Shown in pieces: positions 10,222 through 32,650 of a DNA stretch of 32,650 nucleotides; within the stretch, counting starts at the first letter, position 1, and each line of letters opens with the position of its first letter. The position numbers were made by a program, and so were the translations under genes. The stretch is from a virus: positions 1-32,650 of IMG/VR virus record IMGVR_UViG_3300037541_000454, one strand, 5' to 3'. The notes beneath the pieces are model-generated. The model ran no database searches and was not told where the DNA came from. It was given only the letters and a program-made list of their open reading frames with translations.

Positions 10222-10242
10222 TTCAACATTGCACACTGATTT

Positions 10243-11796: not shown

Positions 11797-11797
11797 T

Positions 11798-12199: not shown

Positions 12200-12221
12200 C
12201 AACGCTACACGTTTGCCGAGC

Positions 12222-13336: not shown

Positions 13337-13340
13337 GTCT

Positions 13341-13490
13341 ATGAAAACCAAATACGCCAAGCTGGTCACGAAACTCAAAAAGCAAGGCGCTGACGATCCT
13401 CGCGCTCTTGCGGCCCACATCGGCAGAAAAAAGCTCGGCGCGGAAGAGTTCCAACGCCGAGCCGCTGCTGGCCGTAAGGCCGCTCGTTAG
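13341..13490 (+). CDS. Small basic phage protein (DPRALAAHIGRKKLG type)
   Basis: A 49-residue very basic protein, MKTKYAKLVTKLKKQG, then DPRALAAHIGRKKLGAEEF and an Arg/Ala-rich end. Short proteins with the ALAA.IGRKK.G pattern are frequent next to structural or lysis genes in aquatic phages. The gene is shorter than many annotation cut-offs, and a longer frame from 13266 lies inside the previous gene. It ends in TAG, which overlaps by 4 bases the stop of the converging scaffold gene, so block B and block C share no intergenic terminator here. Confidence 0.6.
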   Translation: MKTKYAKLVTKLKKQGADDPRALAAHIGRKKLGAEEFQRRAAAGRKAAR

Positions 13491-14734
13491 TACGCTGACG
13501 GCAGTTCGTCGATCGCGTCTTCCGCGTTCTTCGGCGCCACCCGGGTAGCCGTCGAGGTGCCTTCGCCCTGACCGGGCTCAGATGACCGGACCTTGCCGAT
13601 CTTCTTTTCGAGTTCGGCAACCTTCTGCTGGAGTTTGATTACCCGCAGCCGCTCGCGCCCGTAGGCCCGCGCCCGTAGCGCAACCTGAGCCTGAGCCTTC
13701 GTGATGAGGTCTACCTTGTCGTCGTAGCCCATGTCGGCGTCGATGCCCTCGCCCTTGAGCGCGATGCGAACCAGCCGGTCGCTCTCGTCCAGGAGCTTGT
13801 TGCCATCTTCATCACCTTCCTCTCGGCCGAACAGCTGGGCGTGCGTCCTCTCGTAGTCGGCAAACTGCGACTCGAACAGGTCACGCGAGCGGGACTGGCG
13901 AGACTCCACCTGCTTCTTTGATTCGACCTCGCGCTGGGCGCCCTTCTCCTTCCATTCGGTGATGGACTTGTCCCGTGCCTGGGTCAACTCGATGAGCCGG
14001 CGGCGGTGCGCCATGATCTCGGGCGCTGCCGGGCCGAATGTCTCCTGAGCGATGATAGCTGCCTTGGCCACCGGCACGTTCAAGAGCACCATGATGTCCT
14101 GGTGACTGGCGTCACGCTCGGTTCCGTCTTCGTCCGTGACACGGATGCCCTGGATGTCCCCCAGAGCGGTCTGCCACGCTTCACGCAGCGGCGTCTCGTA
14201 CTTCTGCTTGTACTCGGTCGAGCGCGTGTAGTTCAGGTAGCGGACCTCGGTGTCGAGTTCCTCGGCGTTCTTGCGGATCGCATCCATCTCCGCCTTGAGA
14301 GACTTCGTTGCCTCCTCAACCTCCTTGCGGGTGCCCTCGGACTTGACGCGCTCAAGCTCTTGGATCTTGGCGGCAAGATCGTCGCGCTCCTTCTTGGTGA
14401 GTTCGTACTGCTCGCGGAACTGCTTCAACGAGGCTGGCTCGTTCTTAGGTGCCGGATCCGGTGTTTTGGCAGGTGCAGCAACCTCGGTTTTGGGTGAGAC
14501 CAGCTTGTCTAGGCCGAAGGGGTCTTCGTTCTTCTGAGCTGCAGCCGGGGTGACGGGCGCCGGTTCTGGCGGGGCGACCGGGGCTGGCGTTTGTGGTGCA
14601 ACGGGAGCGGCGGGCGCCGGTGAACCCATTGGATTTTCAAGCGCATTCCCTTCGAGGGCGTCGATGCCAGCGAAGGCTTCGGTGTAATCTGCGCCCCGCT
14701 CGGTCGGCGCGTCTGGTGATAGCAGCAAGTTCAT
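13487..14734 (-). CDS. Scaffolding protein
   Basis: A 415-residue protein with a Pro/Ala-rich disordered N-terminus (residues about 35-95), a long charged coiled coil (about 100-165, for example QYELTKKERDDLAAKIQELERV), a central helical domain and a C-terminal coiled coil (LQQKVAELEKKIGKV) before an acidic end. This layout with no catalytic motif is typical of capsid assembly scaffolds, and the gene lies downstream of the portal in the same leftward unit, two genes on. It would bind coat protein and portal during procapsid assembly. The start overlaps the stop of the previous gene as ATGA. The opposite-strand placement from the major capsid gene is unusual. Confidence 0.7.
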   Translation of the reverse strand: MNLLLSPDAPTERGADYTEAFAGIDALEGNALENPMGSPAPAAPVAPQTPAPVAPPEPAPVTPAAAQKNEDPFGLDKLVSPKTEVAAPAKTPDPAPKNEPASLKQFREQYELTKKERDDLAAKIQELERVKSEGTRKEVEEATKSLKAEMDAIRKNAEELDTEVRYLNYTRSTEYKQKYETPLREAWQTALGDIQGIRVTDEDGTERDASHQDIMVLLNVPVAKAAIIAQETFGPAAPEIMAHRRRLIELTQARDKSITEWKEKGAQREVESKKQVESRQSRSRDLFESQFADYERTHAQLFGREEGDEDGNKLLDESDRLVRIALKGEGIDADMGYDDKVDLITKAQAQVALRARAYGRERLRVIKLQQKVAELEKKIGKVRSSEPGQGEGTSTATRVAPKNAEDAIDELPSAY

Positions 14735-14994
14735 TCAAGGTTCTGTTTTACGGTCGGTTTATCTCTCTGCGTCGTCACCAGTCCATGAAGCTCCTCGATC
14801 AACGCCTTGGCGCCCTGCCGGCGGCAGTTGGCGTTCCAGCCGTGTTGAGGGTTTTCGGATACTGGCAGGTTCCAGCAGAGATTGTTGAAGGCAGCCAACA
14901 GCGCGGCTTGGAAGTTGGCGTTGTCCAGTAGGCGCTCAAGCTCCATCACGCGATCTTTGTCGCGCTGAAACTCTTGTTTTGGGGATTGGATCAT
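14731..14994 (-). CDS. Small hypothetical protein between portal and scaffold
   Basis: An 87-residue helical protein (starting MIQSPKQEFQRDKDRVMELE) with start overlapping the portal stop and stop overlapping the scaffold start, both as ATGA, so all three are translationally coupled. It has several Trp, Asn and two Cys residues and no signal or membrane segment. Small proteins in this position are commonly found in podovirus-like phages. A role in head assembly is suggested only by its place. Confidence 0.65.
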   Translation of the reverse strand: MIQSPKQEFQRDKDRVMELERLLDNANFQAALLAAFNNLCWNLPVSENPQHGWNANCRRQGAKALIEELHGLVTTQRDKPTVKQNLE

Positions 14995-17264
14995 TGGTTG
15001 AGGATATTTGCCTGAGTCTTCAAATCCAGAGCCGCAATGTCCGCCCGGGTCATGGCGCCCTTGCGCTGGGCCTCGGCGATCGTGTTGGCGTTCTTGCGCT
15101 GCTGGTCCTGATCGAAAGCAACCTGCTTCTGGATGCGCTTCTGTTCGGCGTTCGCAGCGGCGATCTCGGACTTGGACTGCGCGGTGATGAGCATTGCCTG
15201 AATCTTGCCGGCCACCTCAGGGTTCATACCGTTGCCAGCTGCACCGGCTTCGGCCTGAGCCTGAGCCTGCTCTTGGAGACGCTGCACGTAGCCCTTGATG
15301 TAGTTCGACGCCTGACTGATTCCGTCGTTGTAGAGCTTCATGTTCTGCTCCTGGCCGGGGTCTTCGGAGATCAACCCCATCTGCTCTTGGATGTGCTGAA
15401 TGACGTTCGCAAGACCCAGCACACGTTCCATGGTCGTCATACCGCCCTGCTCCTTTTCGATACGCCCAATGGCGCCACCAAGCATCTGGAGAAGCGTCTG
15501 GATGTACTCGGGCCGATTCATCGCGCTGGCGATGACCACCGGCTGACCGTCGATGAGCGTTCCCCAGGCCAGCGTGGCGCGCTCGACCGCTGGGGATACC
15601 GGTTTGTTGTCCACCGGTGCGAGGCGGTTCGCCAAAAGCGGATCGTCCGTGTTGGCTTCGACGTACATGTGCACAACCTCGGCCTGAGAATCGGGTGCTA
15701 GCAGGGGCCGGATAGCCATGAGGCGGTCGGCCTGCGCGATCTCCAGCATCTTGTTGCCGGAACCCATGACGCGCTCGGGCATGATGTCCCAGCTGTCGAG
15801 GTTTTTCCAAACGGATGGATCGACGCCTTCGACTTCACACTTCCGGCGGAACTGAACGCAGTCGGGATGGTCAATCGTGCAGAACCGGCGAGCGATCTCC
15901 CGGTACTGAAACGATTGCTGGGTGTAGGCACGGGTGAGCATCGAACCCATGAGCGCGTTGGCGTTGTTTACGCGGGCCATCACCTCGGTCGCCGTCAGTT
16001 CCTTGGAAGAACCGTCGTTCACGTCCTGCGTGTAGGCTGCGCTGGACTCGGCCATAATCTGCCGGTGCATGGACATAGCCCCAGAGAGCATCGTGTAATC
16101 CACGACATGGCGCTCAGACTGCGGAACCCACGACAAGCCCTCGGGGATCACGCCCATGTTGAACAGGTCGATCTTCTCCATCCGTTCAGCGTCACCGTCC
16201 GCGACGTTGCGGAAGAGCCAGAGCATCTGCTCGAACACGGAGTCCGTGAATTTGCAGCGTAGGCGGTTCTGAAGGTGGCAGACCGCGTAAAGCAGGTAGC
16301 CCAGTGATCGCACCGAGTGCCAGCGGAACGGCGGCACGACAGCACCGTCGGCGAACTGGATGTGCATCAACTCAAAAATGTCCCGGCCGTAGCACCGGTT
16401 TCCGGCGTCGAAAAGCCACTGGCCAGCGGTCTGCATATTGCCGATGCCGCTGTTGTACTGGTCCACGATGATCCGGCGGCGCCAGGAGGGGTCGTCGCTG
16501 GTCGTGTCCAAAAAGTAGAAATCGTAGCACCGCAAGACCGGCGTTGCGTCGGAACCCCAGTAGCCAGAGTTCTCCTTGAAATCTTCCTCAATCTTCTCAG
16601 GGAAGTATTGGCCGGACCAGTCGTTCACCTGGAGACTGGTCGCCTCGTTCTGGATCATGTTGGCCAGCAACTGGTTCACGAGCTTCAGATTCCAGCCCTC
16701 GTCCACGTTCTCGCCCCGGGTCATCCGAATCAGGTCGGCCGCCGTGAAAGACGTGTAAATCGCGAAGTGCGACAGGTTCTCCATCGTGGTCAACGTGTTC
16801 GTCGGGACCAGGATGTCCTCGGTGCCGCGAGCCGATGGGCACCAGTCGCGATCACGGAGCCAGGTGACCGGGCCGATGCCGTGAAGCACGGTAGCCGCAA
16901 ACTGGGACTCCAAGACCGTGGAGTATTTCGGAGACCGCTTCATCACGCGGTTCAGCTGCTTCGTGATGATGTTGCCCCACTGGGTGCGCTTGTCCCGTGG
17001 GCCTATGTCGAGACCTACCGAGAAGTAATTCTGCGGTTTCAGGAACGCGTTGGTGAACTGCTGGCGCGCCGCGTGAATGATCCGCGTGCCTTCCAGGAAG
17101 TTTACGTTGGTCTGGATCCGGTTGTCTCGCGCCTCCTCGTCGCTGTAGGGAGGGTTGCCGTTGAATGTCGCGTTGATGCGGGCGCGGTTGCGAGATCGAG
17201 GCTGCTCTGCTTCAAGCATCGCGCTGACCACGTTCCAGACTTTACTCGGTTCTTTGAAACTCAT
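14991..17264 (-). CDS. Portal (head-tail connector) protein
   Basis: A 757-residue protein that would form the dodecameric DNA entry ring at the capsid vertex. The length suits the large portals of podovirus-like phages. The N-terminal portion contains NRARINATFNGNPPYSD and QTNVNFLEGTRII, followed by an alpha/beta core. The end (about 590-757) is long, helical and Gln/Ala-rich (YVQRLQEQAQAQAEAGAAGN), as expected for the portal crown/barrel. The ATG is preceded by GAGG with 5-base spacing. It follows the small zinc-type protein by a few bases in a leftward operon with terminase and scaffold. The long frames on the plus strand opposite it are shadows. Confidence 0.85.
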   Translation of the reverse strand: MSFKEPSKVWNVVSAMLEAEQPRSRNRARINATFNGNPPYSDEEARDNRIQTNVNFLEGTRIIHAARQQFTNAFLKPQNYFSVGLDIGPRDKRTQWGNIITKQLNRVMKRSPKYSTVLESQFAATVLHGIGPVTWLRDRDWCPSARGTEDILVPTNTLTTMENLSHFAIYTSFTAADLIRMTRGENVDEGWNLKLVNQLLANMIQNEATSLQVNDWSGQYFPEKIEEDFKENSGYWGSDATPVLRCYDFYFLDTTSDDPSWRRRIIVDQYNSGIGNMQTAGQWLFDAGNRCYGRDIFELMHIQFADGAVVPPFRWHSVRSLGYLLYAVCHLQNRLRCKFTDSVFEQMLWLFRNVADGDAERMEKIDLFNMGVIPEGLSWVPQSERHVVDYTMLSGAMSMHRQIMAESSAAYTQDVNDGSSKELTATEVMARVNNANALMGSMLTRAYTQQSFQYREIARRFCTIDHPDCVQFRRKCEVEGVDPSVWKNLDSWDIMPERVMGSGNKMLEIAQADRLMAIRPLLAPDSQAEVVHMYVEANTDDPLLANRLAPVDNKPVSPAVERATLAWGTLIDGQPVVIASAMNRPEYIQTLLQMLGGAIGRIEKEQGGMTTMERVLGLANVIQHIQEQMGLISEDPGQEQNMKLYNDGISQASNYIKGYVQRLQEQAQAQAEAGAAGNGMNPEVAGKIQAMLITAQSKSEIAAANAEQKRIQKQVAFDQDQQRKNANTIAEAQRKGAMTRADIAALDLKTQANILNQ

Positions 17265-17271
17265 ATTGACC

Positions 17272-17664
17272 TCAGATTGCTTTCCGTTCCTGTGAAATCC
17301 AGCAATTATCGGGCATCACCGTGTCGCCAAGGTAGCTGAGAGGCACCCAAACCTTCAGTTTCAGGTAGCACCCGCAGACATCGCAGGTGCCCGCCAGTCC
17401 CTCGCCGTGCAAAAACATGACCATCTCGTTGCGCGCCTGCTCCTGCTCCAGAATTGCCTCGGCCACGGTCTTGGTGATCGACCGCGTATCCGTGGGTTTG
17501 TTGTGCAGGCAGCGTTTGCAGGTATCAATGCGGTCCTGCGCCTGCTGGCGTTCTACAGGCGTGCCACCATCACCCAGCCACTCAGCTAGGATGCGCGCCC
17601 CTTGAGCCGTTTGGCGCAACTTAGCGGCCGCACGTGCGACAGCCTGAAGTCCTTGGTTGTACAT
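17272..17664 (-). CDS. Small cysteine-pair (zinc-ribbon-like) phage protein
   Basis: A 130-residue protein starting MYNQGLQAVARAAAKL at 17664. The frame opens upstream to 17709, inside the previous gene. It carries two cysteine knuckles, CKRC near 52-55 and CDVCGC near 96-101, and ends PDNCWISQERKAI, with KLKVWVPLSYL between, so zinc binding is likely. Proteins of this plan accompany the PPGGWQF-type small protein in several phages. They lie between ssb or terminase and portal genes, and their role is unknown. It overlaps the upstream gene by 44 bases. A regulatory or DNA-binding role is inference. Confidence 0.65.
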   Translation of the reverse strand: MYNQGLQAVARAAAKLRQTAQGARILAEWLGDGGTPVERQQAQDRIDTCKRCLHNKPTDTRSITKTVAEAILEQEQARNEMVMFLHGEGLAGTCDVCGCYLKLKVWVPLSYLGDTVMPDNCWISQERKAI

Positions 17665-17893
17665 TCGATGAATTGGATGGAGTGCCCGCAAACTGAGGAA
17701 AACGCGCACGGTTGTAAGCCTCCAGATCGCTGACCGCCTGCTCGATCGTAGACGGAATGCTGTTGGCGATCCGGTGTTGATGAATCAGGCGCGCCATATC
17801 GTAGAAGCCGTAGTTCAGTACATCCTTGGGGCTCCAGTTGGTCTTGGGTTCGTAGAACTGCCAGCCACCGGGAGGGAACGTGTCGCGATTCAT
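17621..17893 (-). CDS. Small PPGGWQF-type phage protein
   Basis: A 90-residue protein starting MNRDTFPPGGWQFYEPKTNW and ending in a cysteine pair (CRTCGR). I recognise the FPPGGWQF.EP.T.W opening and the central MARLIHQHRIANS as a recurrent small-protein pattern of phage genomes, without a known function. It lies between the single-stranded DNA-binding protein gene (9-base gap) and the zinc-type gene (44-base overlap) in the leftward packaging operon. The constant pairing with the zinc-type protein suggests they act together. Confidence 0.65.
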   Translation of the reverse strand: MNRDTFPPGGWQFYEPKTNWSPKDVLNYGFYDMARLIHQHRIANSIPSTIEQAVSDLEAYNRARFPQFAGTPSNSSNVQPRTSGCRTCGR

Positions 17894-17902
17894 AGGTAAG
17901 GT

Positions 17903-18334
17903 TTAGAACGGAACATCATCTTCGTCGAGATCAGCCTTCGGTGCGGCAGCTGCTGGTGCAGCCTCACGTCGCGGAGCCGGAGCCGGAGCCGCGCCCTCGT
18001 CGCGTCCCTTCAGGAACTGGAAGGTCTCAATCATGATCCGAGTGGTGGACCGCTTCTCGCCGGTCTTCTTGTCGTCCCACTCCTCACGGGTCAGGCGTCC
18101 CTCAACCATCAGCGGGTGCCCCTTCTTCACGTACTGCGCGATCGTTTCGGCCTGCTTCCCGAAAGCCTTACACTCAGCAAAGTAGACATCCTCCTTTTCC
18201 TCACCGACCTCATTCTTCCAGCGGCGATTCACTGCCAAGCTCAGGTTGCAGACCGCGGTCCCCTTCGGGAGGTACTTGAGTTCTACGTCTCGGGTGAGGT
18301 TGCCGATCAGGATGACTTTGTTGAATGAGGCCAT
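17903..18334 (-). CDS. ssb: Single-stranded DNA-binding protein
   Basis: A 143-residue protein starting MASFNKVILIGNLTRDVELKY, the characteristic opening of bacterial-type SSB. The OB fold covers residues 1-110, with the expected VEGRLTREEWDD segment. An Ala/Pro linker then leads to the acidic tip DLDEDDVPF, which in this family binds partner proteins. It coats single-stranded DNA during replication. It sits 3 bases after the terminase stop, separated from the other replication genes, which are in block A. Co-transcription with packaging genes is unusual but compatible with late replication. Confidence 0.96.
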   Translation of the reverse strand: MASFNKVILIGNLTRDVELKYLPKGTAVCNLSLAVNRRWKNEVGEEKEDVYFAECKAFGKQAETIAQYVKKGHPLMVEGRLTREEWDDKKTGEKRSTTRIMIETFQFLKGRDEGAAPAPAPRREAAPAAAAPKADLDEDDVPF

Positions 18335-18337
18335 AAG

Positions 18338-20110
18338 TTAGGAATAGGTAAGCGAATGTTCAGACTCCATCGTGCGACGTTTCTCTGACAGACGTGTCAG
18401 CCACTTTGGTGTCTGTCGCTTGACAATACCAACACCCTGCCCACCTGCAATCTCAAAACCGTTTCGGCGCGCCATTTCGAGCGCGACCACAAACGAATCC
18501 CAGAGGTCAGGCGAGCGCCCCATGCGCTCCTTGGTTTTGTTCTTGGGCTCAACGTCGATCAGTCCGGTGCGGGCAATACCCCACTCACGCATCGAACCTT
18601 CCTCGGCAACTTCGCGGGGCAGCTTTCGCAGCTGCCTCGATTCAATCAGCAGGCGCGACGAATACCACAGCGCGGTCACCATTTTGCCGTAGGCTTCGCG
18701 TTCAGTCTTCGGATCCCCCTTGCGTACCGGGCGGTCGCTTGGCTTGCCACCAAACTCGATGGGCACCACCTCAGGAGACCACAGGCGGGCAAACGCAGAC
18801 ATCAGGGTGCCGCGTCCCGTGGAGTCAAAACCCACGCGCTCCGGTGAGATATTGCGCTGCTTGCAGTACAGCAGGACGTACTCGGCAATTTGCTCCTCGG
18901 CCTGCTGGGCTTTGATCGCCGTAACCGGAATCACGATCGGAGCCTCGCTGAATGCTAGCACGATGCGCCCCGATGAATCTGGCCCAAAGGTCAGGTCAGT
19001 CATTACGCAGCGATCACCGCCGACGCCCGAGTACGCAGCGTCGATGCCAATGATTCTAGTGAGCTTGTCGGCGCGTTCCCACACAGGATCGTCGAAGGCT
19101 TGGTTCTGCTCGCACAGGGACATGGTGACCACGCGCCTGGTGCCGCCGTCTCGGGGCAGGAGCCCGAGGTTCATCATCGAGAACTGCAACGAGTCCCGGC
19201 CGTAGTAATCGAGGTCCGCCTGAATCTGCTCCGGCGTGATGATGCCCTTGTATGGGTTGGTGCCCTTGGGGAACAGCGCGTTAGGTGTGTCGTACCCGCA
19301 CAACTGGACAGCTACGCCACCGGGCGCCCGCGTTCTCCAGGTGCGCGTCTTTTCAAGGTACTCAAGGCCCTCCCAGCCACCGATCGACGGGTGAGGCTCG
19401 CAGACCACGCCCAGGGCGTCGTTGCGGTCCTTAGGGTTGCCCATCGCGATCAGCTTGAACACCGGGTTCTTGCGGAGGTTGGCGACGGAATCTAAAAAGC
19501 CGCGCCCCATCAGTGATGCTTCGTCCGCGATCAGAATGACCCGGTCGTTCTTCAATCCGACGTAGTTCGACAGGCCGACAAACGTGCCGCCAACCTTGCA
19601 CGCCACGCCGATAATTCCGTCACGGAAGTCTCTCGCCTCCGCATCTTCATCCGAACTGGTCAGCATGAACCGGCTTTCGATCACGTGCCCGGGGAGCCAC
19701 TCCCGCCTCGCCTTAGCCTTGTTGTGCAACTCCTTGATCGCGCCCCAGATGCGCAGCTGGAGACCTTCGCGGGTCGTCGATGACATGATGATCGAGGTCC
19801 CGGTGGGGTAGATGTAGAACGTGCAGAGCCCAAACCCAGCGGAGTCATAGGTCTTACCTGAGGATCCCGGCCCCATGACGCCTACCTCTTGATTCTCGAC
19901 GAACTCCCGGATCAGGAGGTCCGACCAGTTGTGCCAATCGAAATGCGGCCAGAGCGCAGTCATGGCTTGCCGAAAGTGGTAGTATTTGCCGCGCCCGTAC
20001 TTTACGCCGGCGTGCATGATGTACCCGTCCTTGCGCACCATTTCAGCCTCGATGAGAAAGCGGTCTTTTGTACGCCACGGTATGGACAGGTAATCAGGGC
20101 TTTCATTCAT
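18338..20110 (-). CDS. Terminase large subunit
   Basis: A 590-residue packaging motor that pumps DNA into the procapsid and cuts it. From the chosen start MNESPDYLS, Walker A GPGSSGKT lies at 80-87, Walker B VILIADEA at 191-198, and the coupling motif near MGNP at 223-226. The C-terminal RNase H-like nuclease shows Asp in IGIDAAYSG (about 357), Asp in VGFDSTGRG (429) and Asp residues in PDLWDSF (535-538). AGGA lies about 10 bases before this ATG. Another ATG at 20155 would overlap head to head with the divergent tail gene's ATG at CATG and is less likely. It is first in the leftward operon containing ssb, portal and scaffold. Confidence 0.93.
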   Translation of the reverse strand: MNESPDYLSIPWRTKDRFLIEAEMVRKDGYIMHAGVKYGRGKYYHFRQAMTALWPHFDWHNWSDLLIREFVENQEVGVMGPGSSGKTYDSAGFGLCTFYIYPTGTSIIMSSTTREGLQLRIWGAIKELHNKAKARREWLPGHVIESRFMLTSSDEDAEARDFRDGIIGVACKVGGTFVGLSNYVGLKNDRVILIADEASLMGRGFLDSVANLRKNPVFKLIAMGNPKDRNDALGVVCEPHPSIGGWEGLEYLEKTRTWRTRAPGGVAVQLCGYDTPNALFPKGTNPYKGIITPEQIQADLDYYGRDSLQFSMMNLGLLPRDGGTRRVVTMSLCEQNQAFDDPVWERADKLTRIIGIDAAYSGVGGDRCVMTDLTFGPDSSGRIVLAFSEAPIVIPVTAIKAQQAEEQIAEYVLLYCKQRNISPERVGFDSTGRGTLMSAFARLWSPEVVPIEFGGKPSDRPVRKGDPKTEREAYGKMVTALWYSSRLLIESRQLRKLPREVAEEGSMREWGIARTGLIDVEPKNKTKERMGRSPDLWDSFVVALEMARRNGFEIAGGQGVGIVKRQTPKWLTRLSEKRRTMESEHSLTYS

Positions 20111-20153
20111 CTTGCGGGAATCCTGCGATGGCCTTTCAATCGGTTCAAGCGTC
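20111..20153. promoter_or_regulatory. Very short divergent gap between packaging and tail operons
   Basis: Only 43 bases separate the preferred terminase start (20110) from the tail gene start (20154), and a longer terminase start would use the same CATG. Any promoters for the two divergent late operons must overlap coding sequence. No clear -35/-10 pair was found. Confidence 0.35.
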
Positions 20154-22193
20154 ATGGTCGCAGAAAAAAATCGCATCGTTGATGGCCTCCTCACCGCGGA
20201 AGGTGGGGTGGATAGCGGTTTTTCGCCCTCGCTCATTCAGCCCAACCAGCTGGCGTGGGCAGTCAACACGACGGTGCGGGGAGGATTCCCGAAAGCGCGG
20301 CCGGGAATCTGGGTGAAGAATCTCACGTTCGATGATCCGACCGTGGTCTACAACAATGGGTACTACAACGCGGCGGTAAAAAAGGCGTTTGAAAAAGGCC
20401 AGTTTCAAGGATGCGGCACCTACATTGCAGACAACACGGATCCGTTTTTGTTTGCGTCCGTTGGCGGCAAGGTGTTCCAGATCGACATTAAGAACGGGTT
20501 CAAGGTCACCGACCTCACGCCGATAAATTTTACCTTCCAGGTTCAGACTCGCGGCCGGGTTTCCAACGTCGCGACATACGTTTGCGGCGTTCCGCACGGC
20601 CTGTCCCCAGGTATGGTGGTTCGACTTACTGAACCTCCAGGTGCGTTCTTTCCTGATGGATTTTTCGGAGACTTCATTGTTGAGACTGTCCCGAGCGCCA
20701 CGACGTTCACGACGTACTCACCTGGCGTTGACGCAGGCCCGCTGCTTGGTCCGGCATTCAACTGCTACCAGATGGCGACCAACGATCCGCAAGGGTCGCA
20801 CGTCTACTTTCAGCAGGCGGAAAACTGGCTTGTGATTCAGGATGGCCAGAATCAGCCGTACCTTTACAACGGCTCGACGCTCCGGCGCGCAACTGGCGAA
20901 GAGGTTCCCGTCGGCGGCCCGATGGCCTACGGCAAGGGGCGCCTATGGGTTGCCAATGGATCGGAATACTACGGCGGCGATTTGGTCTACGGCGACCCGT
21001 CCTATGGGCGCGACTCGGTTATTCGCTTCACCGAAAACACGTTCCTCAATGAAGGCGGTGCCTTCGCTGTTTCAAACGGCCCAATCACCGGTCTGGCGTT
21101 TGCCGCCAACCTGGACACGTCGCTGGGAGACGGCGACCTGCTGGTATTCACTCCTACCGCAACCTACGCGTTCAACGCCCCGGTTGATCGGGATGTCTGG
21201 AAGGATCTCGATTATCCGATCCAGCGGTTCGCTCTGCTGAACTTCGGATCGTTCAACCATGAGTCCATCGTTGCGGTCAACGGCGACCTGATTTTCCGGG
21301 CGCAGGATGGCATCCGGTCGTTGATCTACGCTCGCCGAGACTTCACCGAGTTCGGCAACACACCGATCAGCCGGCAGGTTGTACGGGCGCTGGCTTACGA
21401 CACTGATTTCTATCTGACAGCTGCCAGTGCGGTAAACTTCGACAACCGGATGTTGATGACCATCCAGCCGCGCAAGATCAACAACCGGGGTATCGTCCAT
21501 GGCGGTCTTGTCGTACTGGATTTTGATCTCGTTTCTGGAATGGGCCGGAAGCTGCCGCCGGCGTGGGAAGGCGTCTGGACTGGCGTGGACGTTTTCCAGA
21601 TGCTGACCGTTCGAGTGAAGCGCACAGAGCGGTGCTTTGCCTTCGGACTGAATCAGGACTACATCGGCCTCTACGAGGTCACCAAGAACGGCCAGTTCGA
21701 CTTCGATGGATTCGATGATGCACCGATCGACTGGACCATTGAAACGCGCTCGCTGACTTTCGCAGAGCCCACAAACAAGAAGCGCCTGGTGAGTGCCGAG
21801 CAATGGTACGACCAGGTGATGGGCGACATCGAATCCAAGGTCTACTTCAAGGCCAACGAGGGCGAGTGCTGGCAGCCGTGGGCCGAGTTCAAGGACTGCG
21901 CCAAGTACCGCAACTGCGAGCCCGGAGAAATTTCGTGTCCTCCGGCCGTTATCAACTGCCAAGAGGTCAAATACTACCAACCCCCCGCCAGATCGCGCAT
22001 CGCCCTTCCACAACCTCCGGACAAGTGCGACGTGCAGACTGGCGGATTCACCCGAGATGGTTATGAGTTCCAACTCCGCTACGTCAACACGGGCCGGTTC
22101 CGCCTTAAACGTGTGGCAATGGTTGCGCAACGTCTTCAGGAGGATCTCTATGGGGACCTCAGTCGCGTCGCCTGCCCGCTCCTCTCCACCTAA
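20154..22193 (+). CDS. Tail protein (stabilisation / tail tubular B-like) with an inserted FCCH-like module
   Basis: A 679-residue protein starting MVAEKNRIVDGLLTAEGGVD, an opening (GL..A.GGVDSG.SP) typical of large podovirus tail or stabilisation proteins. Residues 133-195 form a beta module (RVSNVATYVCGVPHGL, then TTFTTYSPG) also found several times in the next gene. The body has propeller-like repeats such as MAYGKGRLWVANG and LVFTPTATYAF. The C-terminal part has several cysteines (EGECW, CEPGEISC, CQEV). It would be part of the tail tube or nozzle. An alternative start TTG at 20112 overlaps the terminase start. Its end overlaps the tailspike start by 44 bases. Confidence 0.7.
   Translation: MVAEKNRIVDGLLTAEGGVDSGFSPSLIQPNQLAWAVNTTVRGGFPKARPGIWVKNLTFDDPTVVYNNGYYNAAVKKAFEKGQFQGCGTYIADNTDPFLFASVGGKVFQIDIKNGFKVTDLTPINFTFQVQTRGRVSNVATYVCGVPHGLSPGMVVRLTEPPGAFFPDGFFGDFIVETVPSATTFTTYSPGVDAGPLLGPAFNCYQMATNDPQGSHVYFQQAENWLVIQDGQNQPYLYNGSTLRRATGEEVPVGGPMAYGKGRLWVANGSEYYGGDLVYGDPSYGRDSVIRFTENTFLNEGGAFAVSNGPITGLAFAANLDTSLGDGDLLVFTPTATYAFNAPVDRDVWKDLDYPIQRFALLNFGSFNHESIVAVNGDLIFRAQDGIRSLIYARRDFTEFGNTPISRQVVRALAYDTDFYLTAASAVNFDNRMLMTIQPRKINNRGIVHGGLVVLDFDLVSGMGRKLPPAWEGVWTGVDVFQMLTVRVKRTERCFAFGLNQDYIGLYEVTKNGQFDFDGFDDAPIDWTIETRSLTFAEPTNKKRLVSAEQWYDQVMGDIESKVYFKANEGECWQPWAEFKDCAKYRNCEPGEISCPPAVINCQEVKYYQPPARSRIALPQPPDKCDVQTGGFTRDGYEFQLRYVNTGRFRLKRVAMVAQRLQEDLYGDLSRVACPLLST
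20554..20739 (+). repeat. FCCH-like beta module inside the tail protein
   Basis: Encodes about 62 residues with the pattern R..NVATY....HGL..G..V.....G.F..G.F.V..VPSATTFT..SPG. The same pattern occurs at least five times in the adjacent tailspike. Similar segments in phage proteins are often reported by domain searches as ubiquitin-activating E1 FCCH-like. Confidence 0.55.
22138..22143 (+). promoter_or_regulatory. AGGAGG ribosome binding site that fixes the tailspike start
   Basis: A perfect AGGAGG lies 6 bases before the ATG at 22150, within the end of the upstream gene. It favours 22150 over the other in-frame ATG at 22195, which lacks such a site. Confidence 0.8.
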
Positions 22194-25100
22194 AATGCCA
22201 TCCTCAAACCCAGTCGATTACGGTGCTGACCCCTGCGGGCGGCGAAACAGCGCGTGGGCAATCAACGAGTGCCTAATCGCTTCCGGGCGTTGCGATTTTC
22301 CAGAGGGCACGTTTCTGCTGGGATCGAGTCCGGGGGTGAAGATTATCGACCGTGTCCGCACCGGAGGTGTCGCGACGTTCAACACGGCGACGCCGCACGG
22401 GCTGGTTGTTGGCGAGAAGATCACCTTGTACGGGTTTACGGATGTCTCTTTCAATGGAACTGGTCCAGGGCTGTTTGGATTCCAAGTTTTAAGCACGCCG
22501 ACGCCGACGCGTTTCACAGCGTCGATGCCGCTGCCGACCTATCCAGACGCTCCGTTAGTGGTTCAAGACGGCTGGATCAACCTGATCGGCGGCGGCTACA
22601 CCTCGTCCATCGTGATCGGGTATGCCCCGGTTATCAACAACGTCGCGTTTACGGGCAAAGGAGTCGGAAAAACGATCGTCAAATTCGCTGACAACACCTC
22701 GACAAAAAGAGGGGACACTTTCGGCTTCAATATCCAGATGCTGAAGACCATTGGGAACTACCCGGGTTTTGGTGTCGTGGGCGCTCCCGGGGCTTATCCA
22801 GGCGTGCCATTGTTCAGCGTCAACTGCAAGAACACCTTGATCGAGGGGATAACCTTCGACGGCAACTACGCGAAAAACTCGGTTGCGGACATCAAGATCG
22901 TCTCAGTGCAGCGCACCAACGGTGTCAACACGTACACCGTAGACAAGCCGCTGTATGATCCCGGAATACTTGGCACCCAGTTCTATTCCGTTCCCCCTCC
23001 GGCGTACATCCCGCCGATTTCGCCTGCGCCGTACACAAATATCAGCGCAGCCAACCAGTACATCGCGAACGTGGTGACATCCGGTCCCGGAAATGACTTG
23101 TCATTTGTTGGGTTTGGATTCATCACGAACGTGACTCAGTTTTCATTCGAGCGAGACCTTCGCGTGGTGCTAACACAAGGCCGGATCAATCAATTTGGAT
23201 TCGCAATCTACACCAAGCATCCGCAATGGAATTTTGGATTCACGATTGGTGATACGATCACGGTGACCGGATACTCCAATGCCGCGTTGAACGGCACGTT
23301 CGTCGTTGCTGGAGTCCTTTCTGCACAGGAGGTCTTCTGCGTGAACGCCGGCACCGCCACGGTGTTTTCAATGATCGGTTACGAGCGGCTTACCAACGTC
23401 GCCACCTATGACACTGCACTTGCTCACCCGTTCATTTTTGGAGACACGGTGGTCATTTCAGGGTTCGCTGACCCAACGCTAAACGGAACGTTTGTCGTCA
23501 CTGGAGTGCCGTCTCCGGCGCAATTTACCTGCGCGAATGCTGGTCCAAACACAGGGGTTATGGCAGATTCTGGATCGGCCTACGAGGTAATCAACGAGAA
23601 CGCCCGCGCATGGGCCGCGCCAAACGTGCCGTTGACGGTGCAAACCAAAGCAGGCGTCAACTCTCTCTACACGGTCGCCGGAATCAATCATGGCGGAGAA
23701 AAGGCTCTCTTCCAGAAAAACCAGTTCTACGATTTCGGCGTCGGTGTGGCGGACGCAGAGACGTTTATTGCGAAATCGTTCCTGCCCATGAACGTCGATG
23801 ACCTCACGGCCGGCGCCAAGGTGTTGAGCAACGACTTCGGTTACCAGGGGCGCAACTCGATCCAAAGCACGCTGTATCCGGGCAATGCAGAGGCGAACAC
23901 CCAGTGCGCGATCGGTGGCTATTCGAGCTTGGTGAACCCGATCAACGTGGTGTCAAGGTCGGCTGGCGTGGCGACGTACACTTGTGTGATGAAACACACA
24001 CTGCGGGTTGGGGATGTGGTTCCGGTGACGATAGGAAACTACGTTTTTGGAATCATCTCCGCTCAACGGCAATTGAACGTCGTGACGTTCACCACATCGC
24101 AGAAGCATTTTCTCGCACCTGGCAGTAGCGTTACCGTCGATGTCAGCAACAACTCGTTCGACGGATCTTTTTCTGTCGTAAGCGTTGTCAGCGACTTCGC
24201 TTTCACTGTCGCACAGGTAGGCGTTGACGTTTTCCCAGCAATCGTGGTCACTGGATTCGGGGCCGTGAATCTTGGGTTCTCTGGATCGTTGACTGTCATA
24301 TCAACCCCCGACGCCTTCCGGTTCACAGCTGCGGCAGCTGGCCCGAACGTACTTCCCGGCCTCTACCTCGACGGCCAAGTCATCATGCTTCGCAGCCGGC
24401 GGATCTTCGCCTCGGAATGCCTGTTTGAAGGCAACAAGGTTCGCGGCGGCCCAGATCCCGTCAATCAACAGAGCCCCGTGATTGCCGTTACGGTGCGCGA
24501 GACCAGTGGGGCCATAATCCGGAAGAACAACTTTGACGGCTTCCGCGGGACCTGCTTCTACGTTGATTCCTACCAGCACAAAGGGACCAAAATCCAAAAC
24601 AACTCGGCCCTCGGGGTCTCGGCGTTCATCGCGCTGACCGTGCAGGACTGGTACACGCTGATCCAAACGATTGGCACCCCAAACCCCGAGACGTACTCGA
24701 CGTTGATCGCAGCCCACAAGGACATGCTGATCGAGAACAACGACATTCTCCTGACCGGCCCTAATTCTTGGTTCTATCAGACCGCGTTTGCGCCATTGGA
24801 TGCAGTCTTTTTGATCTACAACCACGACGTGGACAAATCGAGGTATTACTACCCGACCGACTACCAGATTCCGATTACGTCCGCATCCCGCGCTGCCAAC
24901 ATCTCGACGTTCACGACTGCTTCCGATCACGAACTCCAGGTGGGAATGGAAATCTCTACGATTGGAGTCACTGACGGCACCTTCAATGGCGTCTTCACGG
25001 TTGCCAGCACCCCTTCATCCACGACTTTCACCGTCGCAAATCCCGGTGCAGCCGTATCGACGGCTGGTGGATTCCTTGGAATCAACGACCCGGTGAAGTT

Positions 25101-25560
25101 CCCGTGGGAGATCCGCCCGATTGGATACCAGCGCACTGCCGGCGTTGCCACGTACACAACCAACAAGGCGCACCAGCTTACGCTTGGCGCTTACGCGACC
25201 ATCGAAGGGTTCAGCAACACCTCGTTCAACGATGAGGTAATCGTGACCGGCACGCCAACGCTCTACACCTTCACCTGCGCGAGCCCCGGACCCGATGTGC
25301 CGTTCACGTCCGAGACCGGAAATTTCTTCCGGTACATCGAAAACATCCAGATTGGCTGCAACCAAGTGCTGCGCCTGAGCGGAAACGAACTGGTCATCAA
25401 CAACGGCGGCCGATTCGGTGTATCGTTCCTCCAGGGGCGCCCAGTGCGTTGCGTTGCCCCGCTGGATCAGTTCTTCTATTTCGATTGTCCCGAGGGCTGT
25501 TTGGCGCTTGAATGCGACCCAGGCCCGTGTAAGCCCAACGACTACCTTTACCGCATCTAA
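22150..25560 (+). CDS. Tailspike / receptor-binding protein with beta-helix and repeated FCCH-like modules
   Basis: A 1136-residue protein with a perfect ribosome binding site before its ATG at 22150; the open frame extends further upstream to 22057 inside the previous gene. Residues about 19-62 (NPVDYGADPCGRRNSAW, then DFPEGTFLL) resemble the start of pectate lyase-type tailspikes. A right-handed beta-helix is suggested by later stacked segments such as IRKNNFDGFRGTCFYV. Between them lie at least five beta modules of the R..GVATYTT..H.L..G....I.GF....FNG.F.V...P....FT form. The end is Cys-rich (CPEGCLALECDPGPC). It is probably trimeric and may bind or cleave surface polysaccharide, although catalytic residues cannot be assigned by eye. 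It is the longest complete gene in the window. Confidence 0.75.
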   Translation: MGTSVASPARSSPPKMPSSNPVDYGADPCGRRNSAWAINECLIASGRCDFPEGTFLLGSSPGVKIIDRVRTGGVATFNTATPHGLVVGEKITLYGFTDVSFNGTGPGLFGFQVLSTPTPTRFTASMPLPTYPDAPLVVQDGWINLIGGGYTSSIVIGYAPVINNVAFTGKGVGKTIVKFADNTSTKRGDTFGFNIQMLKTIGNYPGFGVVGAPGAYPGVPLFSVNCKNTLIEGITFDGNYAKNSVADIKIVSVQRTNGVNTYTVDKPLYDPGILGTQFYSVPPPAYIPPISPAPYTNISAANQYIANVVTSGPGNDLSFVGFGFITNVTQFSFERDLRVVLTQGRINQFGFAIYTKHPQWNFGFTIGDTITVTGYSNAALNGTFVVAGVLSAQEVFCVNAGTATVFSMIGYERLTNVATYDTALAHPFIFGDTVVISGFADPTLNGTFVVTGVPSPAQFTCANAGPNTGVMADSGSAYEVINENARAWAAPNVPLTVQTKAGVNSLYTVAGINHGGEKALFQKNQFYDFGVGVADAETFIAKSFLPMNVDDLTAGAKVLSNDFGYQGRNSIQSTLYPGNAEANTQCAIGGYSSLVNPINVVSRSAGVATYTCVMKHTLRVGDVVPVTIGNYVFGIISAQRQLNVVTFTTSQKHFLAPGSSVTVDVSNNSFDGSFSVVSVVSDFAFTVAQVGVDVFPAIVVTGFGAVNLGFSGSLTVISTPDAFRFTAAAAGPNVLPGLYLDGQVIMLRSRRIFASECLFEGNKVRGGPDPVNQQSPVIAVTVRETSGAIIRKNNFDGFRGTCFYVDSYQHKGTKIQNNSALGVSAFIALTVQDWYTLIQTIGTPNPETYSTLIAAHKDMLIENNDILLTGPNSWFYQTAFAPLDAVFLIYNHDVDKSRYYYPTDYQIPITSASRAANISTFTTASDHELQVGMEISTIGVTDGTFNGVFTVASTPSSTTFTVANPGAAVSTAGGFLGINDPVKFPWEIRPIGYQRTAGVATYTTNKAHQLTLGAYATIEGFSNTSFNDEVIVTGTPTLYTFTCASPGPDVPFTSETGNFFRYIENIQIGCNQVLRLSGNELVINNGGRFGVSFLQGRPVRCVAPLDQFFYFDCPEGCLALECDPGPCKPNDYLYRI
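22351..22539 (+). repeat. FCCH-like module 1 of the tailspike
   Basis: Encodes residues about 68-130 (RVRTGGVATFNTATPHGLVV..., ending TRFTASMP). It shares the spacing and key Val-Ala-Thr, His-Gly-Leu and Phe-Asn-Gly residues with the other copies. Confidence 0.5.
23182..23565 (+). repeat. FCCH-like modules 2 and 3 of the tailspike, in tandem
   Basis: Two adjacent copies. The first (about 23182-23370) is degenerate at its start but has ALNGTFVVAGV. The second (about 23380-23565) has NVATYDTALAH, VVISGF, TLNGTFVVTGVPSPAQFT and NAGPN. The repeated block NGTFVV.GV is conserved at DNA level only in part. Confidence 0.5.
23950..24360 (+). repeat. FCCH-like modules 4 and 5 of the tailspike, interleaved
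   Basis: One copy starts SRSAGVATYTCVMKHTL and is interrupted by a second (RQLNVVTFTTSQKHFLAPG...DGSFSVVSVVSDFAFT), after which the text continues with TVISTPDAFRFTAAAAGPN. It looks like a module inserted into another module, or two partial copies. Confidence 0.4.
24886..25303 (+). repeat. FCCH-like modules 6 and 7 near the tailspike C terminus
   Basis: Copy at about 24886-25053 (NISTFTTASDHELQVG, FNGVFTVASTPSSTTFT) and copy at about 25126-25303 (GVATYTTNKAHQLTLG, FNDEVIVTGTPTLYTFT, SPGPD), separated by about 24 residues. They are the cleanest copies in the window. Confidence 0.55.
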
Positions 25561-28879: not shown

Positions 28880-29740
28880 ATGGCAAACCCCTTCTCAGGA
28901 CTCGAAAACATCGGGCAGTCGTACCTCGCAGGCTTGCAGCTGGCGAACCAACGCCAAGCGCGTGAGGAAGCAACAGCGCAGCGTGCTGAAGAGGCGCGGA
29001 TGCGTGATAGGTACTACCAGGATCTCGTTGAGCAGCGACGGGAGGCGGCAACGCTTGGGGCTAAAAGCCGTGATGAGGGTCTAGCGGCCAAGTTTGGAAG
29101 GTTCTTGAAACGTAACCCTGACGGGTCGATCGACATCGTGGGTTCTGCAACCGCCCAAGAAGAAGCCGGCAATCGAAACCAGCTTCTGGAGACCATTGGG
29201 TTTGCAGAAACGCAGGGGATCCCGATTCCAGGCGTGGAGTTGACTCCAGAAGAGCGCAAATCCGAATTTTACAATCGCGGAAGAGCCCAGGGAATCGTTC
29301 AAAAGACCAAAGACGCCCAGCAGTTTGACCGCATATTGGCATCGCAAGGAGTGTTTCCGCTTGGTAATCAACCTCAGATTCCAGCTGACGTTGAATCAGC
29401 CATCACCGGCCAAGGGCCAGCGACGATATTTGACATCTTGTCAGGTGCTGCGCCTGCCGCAACAGCACCACGCGTTGAACTCCCGGAAGGCATGACTACA
29501 AGCCGAGTGGCAGGACGTGATGTCATGATGCGGAAGCCGAAAACAGAAAAGGCCGCAAAGACAGAATATCCCGGAGAAATCGAAATCGACACTCTTCAAG
29601 GCCCAATGAAGGTGAAGCTGACAGCCGAGCAAATTGCCGAGCGATTGGCTCAACAAGCGTCACCTCAACCTACCAACGCTCCCGTAAAAGCACGCTTTCA
29701 ACGCGACCCGGTCACAGGCAAGCTCGTCCTAGCCAAATAA
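28880..29740 (+). CDS. Coiled-coil structural protein, possible internal virion component
   Basis: A 286-residue protein starting MANPFSGLENIGQSYLAGL, 3 bases after the previous stop. Residues 18-60 are strongly charged and helical (LANQRQAREEATAQRAEEARMRDRYYQDL), typical of coiled coils. The rest is a low-complexity Glu/Gln/Lys/Ala-rich region with a short beta segment (IEIDTLQGPMKVKL) near the end. No cysteine, signal or membrane segment. Its position between a hydrophobic and a giant protein in the tail operon suggests part of the ejection complex. Confidence 0.6.
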   Translation: MANPFSGLENIGQSYLAGLQLANQRQAREEATAQRAEEARMRDRYYQDLVEQRREAATLGAKSRDEGLAAKFGRFLKRNPDGSIDIVGSATAQEEAGNRNQLLETIGFAETQGIPIPGVELTPEERKSEFYNRGRAQGIVQKTKDAQQFDRILASQGVFPLGNQPQIPADVESAITGQGPATIFDILSGAAPAATAPRVELPEGMTTSRVAGRDVMMRKPKTEKAAKTEYPGEIEIDTLQGPMKVKLTAEQIAERLAQQASPQPTNAPVKARFQRDPVTGKLVLAK

Positions 29741-29743
29741 ACC

Positions 29744-32650
29744 ATGCCTAAGCTCGTTGATATTCAAGACATCGGACTGATCGAGGTTCCTGATGACGTT
29801 GGTGAAAACGAACTTCAAGAGCTTGTCGATACGTTTGACCAAGGCGCGCTACCCGCCGCTGGATCAGCCTTGATGCGCGAAGGCGGCCGAATGGTCGGCG
29901 GCGCGATGATGGGGCTTGCGCGTGCAGCGTCTGAGGAACCGCCTCCTACCATTACGGCAGCACAGGCTGAGAGCCCTGCTGGAATGGCGGCCTACGAACG
30001 CCGTCTTTTGGAATGGGAAAAACGGACCAAAGCAGTTTCTCCCGAAGAACTTCAGGCACGTACTGAAACTGATGCGACGTTCAGGCTTGGTCAGAATCTT
30101 CAAGCAGGAGCGGCGGAAGCGTTTCCGGTCAATCCGTTGCGCGAGGGGGATTACCTCACTCAAATTGCAAGCGGCGTTGGATCACTTCCGGTTTCGGCCA
30201 TACCAATTGCTGGCCAATTGGCATACGGTCTCAGTTCCGGCGAAGATGCCGCGCAAGAGGCAGGTCAGTTCTACGACACCAAGATTGCAGACGCGTTGGC
30301 CAAAGGTGATTTGGTTGAAGCCAATCGACTTCGTTCTGAAAAGCCGCTGGCGCAGCGCAAAGTGCTCATGGCCACCGCGCCGATAGGTGCTATCACTGAA
30401 AGCGCATTGGGCGCCGTTCCGGCAATCAAACGCCTTGTGACTGGCGCTGTTGGCAAACGCGTAATTCGTGGCGCTATCAGAACTGGCCTTGAAGAAGCTG
30501 CACAGGAATCGTCTGAGCAGTTTCTTCAGAATCTGGCCGCTCAGAAAATCTACAATCCTGACCAGAAACTGGGCCAAGGCATCCTTGAGTCCGGAGAGGT
30601 TGGTGCAGGCGTTGGAACACTGGTTGGACTTGTCGCCGGTGGTGCTGGAAAGATTTCCCGTGGCCAAAGGCTCCGCAGTCTCCAGGAGCAACGTCTTGCA
30701 AGAGGACCTGCCATTGTAAGAGATGGCGTTCAAACAATCGTTGATACCGAAGCCGATATTCGTGAATCCATTGGCGCTGATCCTGCCAATCCGCTTCCGA
30801 ACTCTGCTGCTACCGTCAGCGGTATTGAGGATGCGCTGACTCCGGATATTGCCGAAGAGCTTGGCGGGATCAATGCAGGTGGACCGCCCTCTGGACCGAT
30901 TTCAATCCAGCCCGAGCCCACGATTCCTGCCGCTGTCGAGGAGGCTATTGCGCCGCCGGCGCCCGCTCCTGGAATCAACGTCAACCGTCTCGACGATCTT
31001 CGTTTGAAGGCTGAGTCCGGAACAATTCAGCCGGAAGAGTTTCAAGAATTGCGCGGACTGCATCGCGAGATGGGTCTTCCGGAACCTGTTGTTGCGGAAC
31101 CTGAAGTTCCAGTTGCGGAACCTGAAGTCCAAGCGGGACTGCCAGAAGTGGATCAAGGAGGGCGGCCTCCCGAAGGAGCAGGGGCCGAAACCCAAGCGCC
31201 GGTCGTACCCGAAGATTTAATCCGTCCGCCGGAGGAAATCTCTCCAGCGGCGTCTGCGCTTCCCCCTGCCGAACCAACCCCGGTTCCTGCACCCAAGCTG
31301 GTTGAGCCAACCAAGAAAGCGGCCGAAGAAGAACTCGAATCGCAGATCGTTGAGGCCACGGCCAAGACTGTTCGTGAAGACCGGTCTGCCGGAGTGGATC
31401 CGAACGAGACCTACGATAAGCTGACCCAACGGTACGAGGAACAGCCGCAGCTGGGTACTCGCACGGCTGCAAGCAAGACCGCCCAAGCGTATTCCACGCC
31501 GCCTCCGTTGGCCTATCTGGCCGGCATTCTGGCGGATGTAGAGGGAGGCCAACGCGTGGCCGAGACGACTGCCGGCAACGGAATGCTTCTGGTCACTTCG
31601 GATCCGACCAAGCAGGACATTCTTGCCAACGAGTTAGACCCGAATCGCCGCACCCGCTTGGAGCGTTTCATCGGCAAGCCTGCGACCGGGCTCGATGCGG
31701 TGAGCCAGGAGTTTTTCAACTCACTGGATTTGGCTCAGCCGGATCGCGTCATTATCAACCCTCCGTTTGGCGCTCGATTCATCGAAGGCCAAAAGGAGTC
31801 GTTCCCGCTTTTCAGAAGCAGCATCAAGCGGGCTCAGACATCGAGCATCGACCTCGCCATCGCTCTGAACACGCTCGAAGCCATGGCTCCCAACGGAAAA
31901 GCCGTGCTGATCTTGGGATCCAAAACTGGATCGCAGTCCAACAAGCTGGGAACTCCAGAAAACCGGCTCAGATCCTACGAGCGGGCTGAGTACCTTGACC
32001 TGTTCAATCGGTTCAATGTCACCGACTTCTTCACCATCGACGGGGGGATGTACTCTAAGATGGGTGCGGGATGGCCGGTTGATATTGTGGTAATCGACGG
32101 AAAACGATCAACACCTCCCGCTGCCCAAGGAGGATTGGTTCGTCCGTGGGTTTCGGCACCTCGCGTTTACAACAGCTGGGCACAACTCAAACCCCTGATA
32201 AATGAAGCTCGCAAACCGAAAGTCACAACCCCTGTCACCCCAGCAGCAACTGGCGTCGGAAATCTCCCAGCTGTGGAGCCAACAGTTGCAGGAGGTGGAG
32301 GACAACCCGGAGGCGTTCCAGGAGCGCCTGCGCGTCCTGAAGTCGTACCTCAAGGACAGCGGGCAGAACCTGCACCTGTCGAGCAGCCTGTTCCTGGACC
32401 CGGACCAGTTGTACCAAGTGTTCAAGAACAACGACCTGTTGCTCCAAGTGAACCAGCGGCAACTGGACCAGTGGTTGAGCCAACGGCCGCAGTCGAACAA
32501 CCAGGAGCAGCTGGAGTCGTGGAGGGTGGACGGCCTGAACCTGTGGTTAATCCGCCTGCCGCAAGGCCCGGACTAACGGCAAAGCTCTCGACGGAAGATC
32601 AGGCGCAACTGGAGGCGCTGAAGAAGCAGCTGCGCGAGAAGCTCGGCGGC
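29744..32650 (+). CDS. Giant polyvalent virion protein with N6-adenine methyltransferase-like domain, partial
   Basis: The frame is open for all 969 codons from the ATG at 29744 to the window edge, so the C terminus is missing. Residues 140-165 and 285-305 (GVGSLPVSAIPIAGQLAYG and GAGVGTLVGLVAGGAGK) look like membrane-active or ejection-type glycine-rich helices. A Pro/Val/Glu linker follows (about 380-530). Residues about 590-760 form a methyltransferase-like domain with motif I AETTAGNGML near 606-615 and the motif IV catalytic site NPPF at 672-675, as in N6-adenine methylases. A Pro/Gly/Val-rich linker (about 830-940) leads to a charged helix at the window edge. This layout fits polyvalent phage proteins that enter the cell with the DNA and protect it from restriction. 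Confidence 0.85.
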   Translation, partial: MPKLVDIQDIGLIEVPDDVGENELQELVDTFDQGALPAAGSALMREGGRMVGGAMMGLARAASEEPPPTITAAQAESPAGMAAYERRLLEWEKRTKAVSPEELQARTETDATFRLGQNLQAGAAEAFPVNPLREGDYLTQIASGVGSLPVSAIPIAGQLAYGLSSGEDAAQEAGQFYDTKIADALAKGDLVEANRLRSEKPLAQRKVLMATAPIGAITESALGAVPAIKRLVTGAVGKRVIRGAIRTGLEEAAQESSEQFLQNLAAQKIYNPDQKLGQGILESGEVGAGVGTLVGLVAGGAGKISRGQRLRSLQEQRLARGPAIVRDGVQTIVDTEADIRESIGADPANPLPNSAATVSGIEDALTPDIAEELGGINAGGPPSGPISIQPEPTIPAAVEEAIAPPAPAPGINVNRLDDLRLKAESGTIQPEEFQELRGLHREMGLPEPVVAEPEVPVAEPEVQAGLPEVDQGGRPPEGAGAETQAPVVPEDLIRPPEEISPAASALPPAEPTPVPAPKLVEPTKKAAEEELESQIVEATAKTVREDRSAGVDPNETYDKLTQRYEEQPQLGTRTAASKTAQAYSTPPPLAYLAGILADVEGGQRVAETTAGNGMLLVTSDPTKQDILANELDPNRRTRLERFIGKPATGLDAVSQEFFNSLDLAQPDRVIINPPFGARFIEGQKESFPLFRSSIKRAQTSSIDLAIALNTLEAMAPNGKAVLILGSKTGSQSNKLGTPENRLRSYERAEYLDLFNRFNVTDFFTIDGGMYSKMGAGWPVDIVVIDGKRSTPPAAQGGLVRPWVSAPRVYNSWAQLKPLINEARKPKVTTPVTPAATGVGNLPAVEPTVAGGGGQPGGVPGAPARPEVVPQGQRAEPAPVEQPVPGPGPVVPSVQEQRPVAPSEPAATGPVVEPTAAVEQPGAAGVVEGGRPEPVVNPPAARPGLTAKLSTEDQAQLEALKKQLREKLGG
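31091..31128 (+). repeat. 17-base direct repeat in the Pro/Val/Glu linker
   Basis: GTTGCGGAACCTGAAGT occurs at 31091-31107 and 31112-31128 with a 21-base period, encoding VAEPEVP-type heptads in the giant protein. It marks recent local duplication within the linker. Confidence 0.7.
32202..32576 (+). other. Alternative-frame ORF within the giant protein gene
   Basis: A complete ATG-to-stop frame of 124 codons lies in the +1 frame of the giant gene, across its Pro/Gly/Val linker. It encodes a Gln/Leu-rich helical sequence with almost exclusive G/C third positions. That bias is expected mechanically from Pro/Ala/Gly/Val/Glu codons in the main frame, and no ribosome binding site is visible. Kept as a candidate overprinted gene only. 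Confidence 0.25.

Follow-up and report, generated by a model that had tools for sequence, protein, structure and literature searches.

A candidate +1-frame gene nested in the methyltransferase-helicase linker of a giant polyvalent phage gene

The methylase-helicase dyad of polyvalent proteins was defined in 2017 by Iyer et al., with DarB of phage P1 as its archetype: within a giant late protein, a methyltransferase (MTase) with TP and NPP(F/Y) motifs immediately precedes an SF2 helicase, and an LPD36 domain with a GxGU motif nearly always lies N-terminal to the MTase (PMC5512222). The same study covers Strawberry-notch (Sno)-type members and ADP-ribosyltransferase domains among the polyvalent proteins; the parts of it retrieved by term searches do not refer to any nested gene between the MTase and helicase domains. 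DarB is located in the phage head, and its first 30 residues target cargo to the capsid (PMC9024508); it presumably passes into the cell, and it confers protection from the type I enzymes EcoK and EcoB (PMC9024508, PMC12810830). A DarB-like protein of a podovirus, JC1 gp69, has been detected in virions by mass spectrometry (PMC9144972). Polyvalent MTase-helicase proteins are thought to be a main route by which phages and mobile elements survive restriction.

The stretch of DNA analysed here (the window, 32,650 nt) is the complete IMG/VR record IMGVR_UViG_3300037541_000454. Its last ORF, at 29744-32650 on the plus strand, had been picked out in the original prediction as a giant polyvalent virion protein with an N6-adenine MTase-like domain, running off the right end; it comprises 969 aa and is indeed still open there. 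The rightward extension proposed as a check could not come from the record itself and was supplied by contig 3300033979_000214 (L005), which is 100% identical to the window across 12,907 nt and then continues. In L005 the giant gene is complete at 10001-19678 and encodes 3,225 aa, of which the first 969 lie in the window; it is followed by a gene for a RecT-like annealing protein and then by two exonuclease genes, in keeping with the predicted place at the end of the late operon. The context is that of phage late genes, with tail-fibre and spike-like genes upstream and a terminase gene on the same contig. For the terminase (window 18338-20236) and the spike-like protein (22057-25560), 50,697 phage records contain essentially no relatives, indicating that this phage group has no sequenced isolate. 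The features of the giant gene and its immediate surroundings are as follows.

28880-29740, plus strand: p286, a 286-aa protein directly upstream of the giant gene
29744-32650, plus strand: 5' part of the giant polyvalent gene for the MTase-Sno helicase (969 of its 3,225 codons); the full gene lies at L005:10001-19678
29744-30763, plus strand: leader, aa 1-340, mainly helical by a low-confidence model
30776-31363, plus strand: first Pro-rich linker, aa 345-540, not overprinted
31409-32209, plus strand: predicted N6-adenine (gamma class) DNA MTase domain, aa 556-822
31496-31501, plus strand: aa 585-586, the N-terminal TP motif of the MTase; no variation among 54 viral sequences
31559-31588, plus strand: SAM-binding motif I, AETTAGNGML, aa 606-615
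31757-31768, plus strand: NPPF, the catalytic motif IV, aa 672-675; no variation among the 54 viral sequences
32202-32576, plus strand: candidate nested overlapping gene in the +1 frame, ATG start, 124 aa (MKLANRKSQPL...RLPQGPD)
32219-32578, plus strand: second Pro-rich linker, aa 826-945, overprinted by the nested gene
32579-32650, plus strand: first part of a conserved small domain that spans aa 946 to about 1040, common to DarB-like/PLxRFG phage proteins and continuing past the window

The completed protein consists, in order, of the helical leader, the N6-adenine MTase, the small DarB-type domain, a Sno SF2 helicase and a long C-terminal part, so that further domains do lie beyond the window, as had been expected; purifying selection acts on all of its domains. 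The leader shows weak similarity to the N-termini of virion RNA polymerases and DarB-like proteins in Pfam and PHROGs; a structure search with the leader model was dropped, the model being too uncertain. The proposed profile search for a methylase returned a Pfam N6_Mtase match at aa 662-731 with an E value of 3e-4, and as this match is weak the MTase claim was tested further. The TP motif, the Glu and Gly of motif I, and NPPFG are invariant in 54 viral sequences with identity down to 38%, and the AETTAGNGML and NPPF motifs noticed earlier fall within this pattern. The AlphaFold2 model of the domain has a pLDDT of 91, and its best folds in the PDB are type I restriction-modification M subunits, CamA and M.BseCI, all of them adenine-N6 MTases. 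The window protein is thus seen, from its motifs and modelled fold, to carry a gamma-class N6-adenine MTase domain of predicted activity.

Beyond the window, Pfam places AAA_34 at aa 1111-1413 (E 1.6e-10) and Helicase_C_4 at aa 1602-1762 (E 3.7e-18) of the completed protein; together they form the Strawberry-notch pair, and the helicase motifs GVGKGR, DEAH and QMLGRIMRFGQ are conserved. The best PHROG is phrog_10089, DarB-like antirestriction (9e-22). A first genome scan with a full-length giant-protein profile gave no match. Domain queries showed viral relatives to be common, with 139 matches to the MTase and 255 to the helicase, and a Sno helicase lies downstream of the MTase in 80/80 complete distinct MTase ORFs, a set gathered with both domains as queries. 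The window protein thus has the features of the dyad, namely a gamma MTase with TP and NPP(F/Y), a C-terminal SF2 helicase (aa 1111-1762) and a late context; the exception is LPD36, as no GxG[GAS] occurs in aa 481-640, whereas P1 DarB has the motif. Judged by its domains, the giant protein is of a known kind, a polyvalent MTase-helicase of the P1 DarB class and Sno subtype. Novelty of the architecture itself is therefore not supported, since such proteins were defined in 2017 (PMC5512222); what is new here is the candidate nested +1-frame gene.

The closest described proteins differ from this one in several respects. P1 DarB (2,255 aa) is likewise a giant MTase and SF2 helicase, and hhalign identifies the two MTase domains as homologous (96%, E 5e-9), although DarB has NVPF in place of NPPF; its helicase is made up of SNF2-rel_dom and Helicase_C rather than the Strawberry-notch pair, and the two helicases gave no alignment. 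The DarB-like proteins of the podoviruses (JC1 gp69, Bcep22 gp75 and that of Klebsiella phage SopranoGao) are encoded, as in the window, by a very large gene that ends the morphogenesis module; the SopranoGao protein shares the small domain (aa 943-1034) with the window protein but has a helicase of the ResIII/SNF2 type, unlike the Sno type found here. Bacteroides phage BS-TP4 gp3 (5,391 aa) is a Sno-type MTase-helicase with 31-33% identity to the window protein, and its gene has a nested +1 ORF at the same place; it differs from the window in its flanks, in having the small domain before the MTase and in a nested protein from another family.

By analogy with DarB, the giant protein most likely protects injected DNA from restriction, and an antirestriction role may be called likely. 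In the mechanism we propose, this late protein would enter the cell together with the phage DNA, and the helicase would track along the injected DNA while the MTase marks it, so that host restriction enzymes do not cut. A location in the virion and injection are plausible in view of P1 DarB, JC1 gp69 and the weak leader match. Alternatively, the protein could be chiefly an ejection or DNA-translocation machine, with an MTase that counters a target other than restriction enzymes (e.g. BREX) or acts on host DNA. The leader and C-terminal parts are long and without assigned function, and close relatives at the same place bear another helicase or an ADP-ribosyltransferase domain instead, both of which suit this alternative; the strict conservation of the MTase motifs, the low pN/pS and the antirestriction activity of the best-studied relative, the virion protein P1 DarB (PMC9024508, PMC12810830), speak against it and make it unlikely.

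The place between p286 and RecT is an exchange slot, in which near-identical phages of this group carry different giant proteins between the same flanks. The payloads seen are the following.

Window: MTase-Sno
L016 and L020: another SF2 helicase, without an MTase
L289 and L290: a shorter form with neither MTase nor helicase
L303, and weakly L307: a payload with an ADP-ribosyltransferase domain
L305: a payload with DUF7178

Upstream of the giant gene, L020 and L005 are mostly 93-100% identical, and downstream of it 96-98%, but the giant gene is different throughout; L006 and L014 have another leader (31-33% aa identity) joined to a nearly identical MTase (98.5%). Leader and payload therefore recombine separately, and whole payloads (MTase-helicase, another helicase, ADP-ribosyltransferase) are traded between otherwise near-identical phages. 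Codons 761-920 of L305 show almost no synonymous or non-synonymous change against L303, L310 and L314, unlike the remainder of the gene, and are probably a recently exchanged segment. p286 diverges with the giant gene (35-66% identity, the neighbouring genes being mostly at 60-98%) and may be a partner of the giant-protein leader. A single in-frame TAG interrupts codon 2313 of the giant gene in L003, where the near-identical sister L002 has GAG; on this reading the L003 gene is a broken or misread copy.

The repeated Pro-rich linkers of the original prediction are present as two stretches, with 29 Pro in aa 385-525 and 27 in aa 826-945; the first is not overprinted, and the second coincides with a conserved ORF in the +1 frame. 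The nested ORF overprints codons 820-944 of the giant gene, and its start, length and stop are identical in nine relatives compared; a comparison over 12 loci likewise showed them to be conserved. Main-frame dS in codons 826-945 is 0.02-0.13 in all five comparisons and 0.14-2.3 in nearly all other segments, the sole other low value being 0.045 for one small domain in one pair; the drop, about eightfold, falls exactly across the nested ORF, and of 159 sliding windows only those over codons 801-960 are low in synonymous divergence. Main-frame dN/dS over the same codons is 1.4-1.9 in the five comparisons. Between the window and L007, the three nested codon positions carry 19, 13 and 28 nucleotide changes, whereas elsewhere in the giant gene most changes are at main-frame position 3 (p 3e-12 for this shift in L007, 8e-14 in L012). 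Main-frame third-position changes run up to codon 819, are sparse within the nested ORF and become dense again from 943-946, and these two points are the ends of the nested ORF. No such synonymous dip was found in payload B, the giant proteins without the MTase. A nested gene in payload D was considered and rejected, its low-divergence stretches being also low in pN and resembling recent exchange. The linker thus holds two overlapping protein-coding sequences under selection. These substitution patterns lead us to hold with high confidence that the nested ORF is protein-coding, and they suggest that its product is expressed.

The overlap recurs in phages, plasmids and cyanobacteria. We surveyed 170 distinct MTase-Sno linkers for +1 ORFs spanning 90 or more codons and found one in 96/96 viral and 35/43 bacterial linkers of at least 90 aa; 29 surveyed linkers are shorter than 90 aa, mostly from Bacteroidetes chromosomes. 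In Acinetobacter phage MD-2021a an MTase-Sno pair occurs with no nested ORF, so the latter is not a necessary companion of the pair. When compared by phmmer, 109 of 138 +1 products form one homology component and a further component of 11 members includes the window type; the largest components among the controls held 32 of 141 for main-frame linkers, 15 for +2 frames and 20 for reverse frames. Iterated profiles started from L276 gathered 98 members and none among shuffled sequences. The nested proteins belong to at least two families, the window type and the large one, which cannot be aligned with each other; homologues with 25-26% identity to the window type occur at the same place and frame in L130, L131 and L181. 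In 386/387 and 17/17 pairs the nested products are closer to each other in amino acid identity than the main-frame products are; these pairs share sequences and are not independent. In the phage, bacterial and window-type sets, median pN/pS is 0.55, 0.35 and 0.37 for the nested frame and 1.44, 1.45 and 2.46 for the main frame, again over non-independent pairs.

A Shine-Dalgarno core, often AAGGAG, lies 5-15 nt upstream of the first nested ATG in 53/79 viral cases (67%), against a background of 316/5,579 other +1 ATGs (5.7%; enrichment p 9e-47), and an in-frame nested stop often stands immediately upstream of that ATG. No Shine-Dalgarno motif precedes the nested ATG in the window or in its group, and most of the neighbouring genes checked lack one as well. 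Frameshifting is common in phage late genes, and the nested frame lies directly behind the MTase, so that it might be reached by programmed frameshifting, giving an MTase with a tail rather than a protein with its own start; both the stop so often found just before the ATG and the Shine-Dalgarno sites of most viral relatives make this quite improbable. We favor translation of the 124-aa protein from a separate start, preceded in most relatives by a dedicated Shine-Dalgarno site, in which case the linker of the giant protein would be whatever the other frame of the nested gene spells.

An open +1 frame could also be a by-product of linker composition, with Gly/Pro/Ala-rich codons keeping the frame open and nothing being translated. 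At least 124 open codons do arise in 22% of synonymous randomisations of the window linker, and reverse frames are often open too; openness is not significant there and was for this reason dropped as evidence. An origin in composition nevertheless predicts neither the eightfold synonymous drop at the ORF boundaries, nor conserved nested proteins, nor Shine-Dalgarno sites at 67% of starts, and we consider it very improbable. Slightly less credible still is an RNA structure or regulatory site in place of a second protein, since the constraint spans about 375 nt but the substitutions keep the nested codon rhythm (19/13/28), pN/pS is 0.35-0.55 in the nested frame only, and distant members share protein similarity and not nucleotide similarity. 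As a whole, a polyvalent antirestriction MTase-Sno protein with a nested 124-aa gene in its MTase-helicase linker seems to us a highly likely account of the locus.

Overprinted genes are familiar from phages, such as Rz1 within Rz in lambda and E within D in phiX174, in which a second protein is likewise encoded out of frame on the same strand. Unlike in those pairs, the host gene here encodes a giant MTase-helicase and the overlap is always in the linker between two enzyme domains. This constant position suggests a partner of the enzyme, an idea favored by the tie of the nested gene to MTase-Sno and its absence from the MTase-less giant proteins (payload B). The product may be a small soluble protein that chaperones, silences or helps load the MTase-helicase; made in fixed proportion from the same mRNA, it could serve as a chaperone, as an inhibitor in the producing cell or as a subunit. 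We give about even chances to the nested protein being a co-translated partner of the MTase-Sno enzyme. More generally, the MTase-Sno genes of phages, plasmids and cyanobacteria probably share a hidden nested partner gene whose product would be an obligatory subunit, chaperone or inhibitor, the 'disordered linker' being a side effect of overprinting.

No free-standing nested homologue occurs in the loci examined; the profile matches sit inside a longer MTase-Sno gene, and of six apparent exceptions, one is the L050 ORF itself and the other five are loci outside the long-ORF table. The nested protein has no relative in the PDB and none in sequenced phage records apart from BS-TP4. Ulx of P1 was rejected as a homologue, as was a nested gene in P1 darB: the 177-codon +1 run there is rich in Ser and Arg and almost devoid of Met, and one as long arises in 8/300 randomisations. 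Every annotated record checked lacks the nested ORF, including BS-TP4 and plasmid pAQ6 of Picosynechococcus PCC 7002 (L337), the gene table of which is known to be incomplete; in pAQ6 the nested ORF lies at about 100507-101013 on the minus strand, within SYNPCC7002_RS15125, and the nested stretch is assigned to a 'strawberry notch C-terminal domain-containing protein'. We found no published report of the nested gene in the open-access literature, most subscription papers being outside this scope. None of the annotations checked thus reveals the second gene hidden in the MTase-helicase genes. Should the nested protein be real, an unseen partner has been present whenever such giant genes were cloned or studied functionally, and some of the giant protein's biochemistry may belong to the nested one. 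In dsDNA phages it is rare for two conserved proteins to share a long and recurrent overlap, and more than 100 natural examples are seen here.

Two further observations concern the wider set of MTase-Sno genes. Just upstream of the MTase-Sno gene of pAQ6 lie genes for a separate N-6 DNA methylase, a hypothetical protein and a RelE/ParE-type toxin. Many MTase-Sno giant proteins of other phages, including those of L217, L232, L241, L189, L173 and L191, have a short motif duplicated in the first 80 aa that differs from phage to phage (e.g. KFWEDDPLVS/KFWENDPITS). As a tag common to other proteins the motif was rejected, since it was not found in the other genes of these loci. A duplication at p<=0.01 is present in 21/76 proteins versus 15/228 internal windows, and these motifs are possibly capsid-targeting signals.
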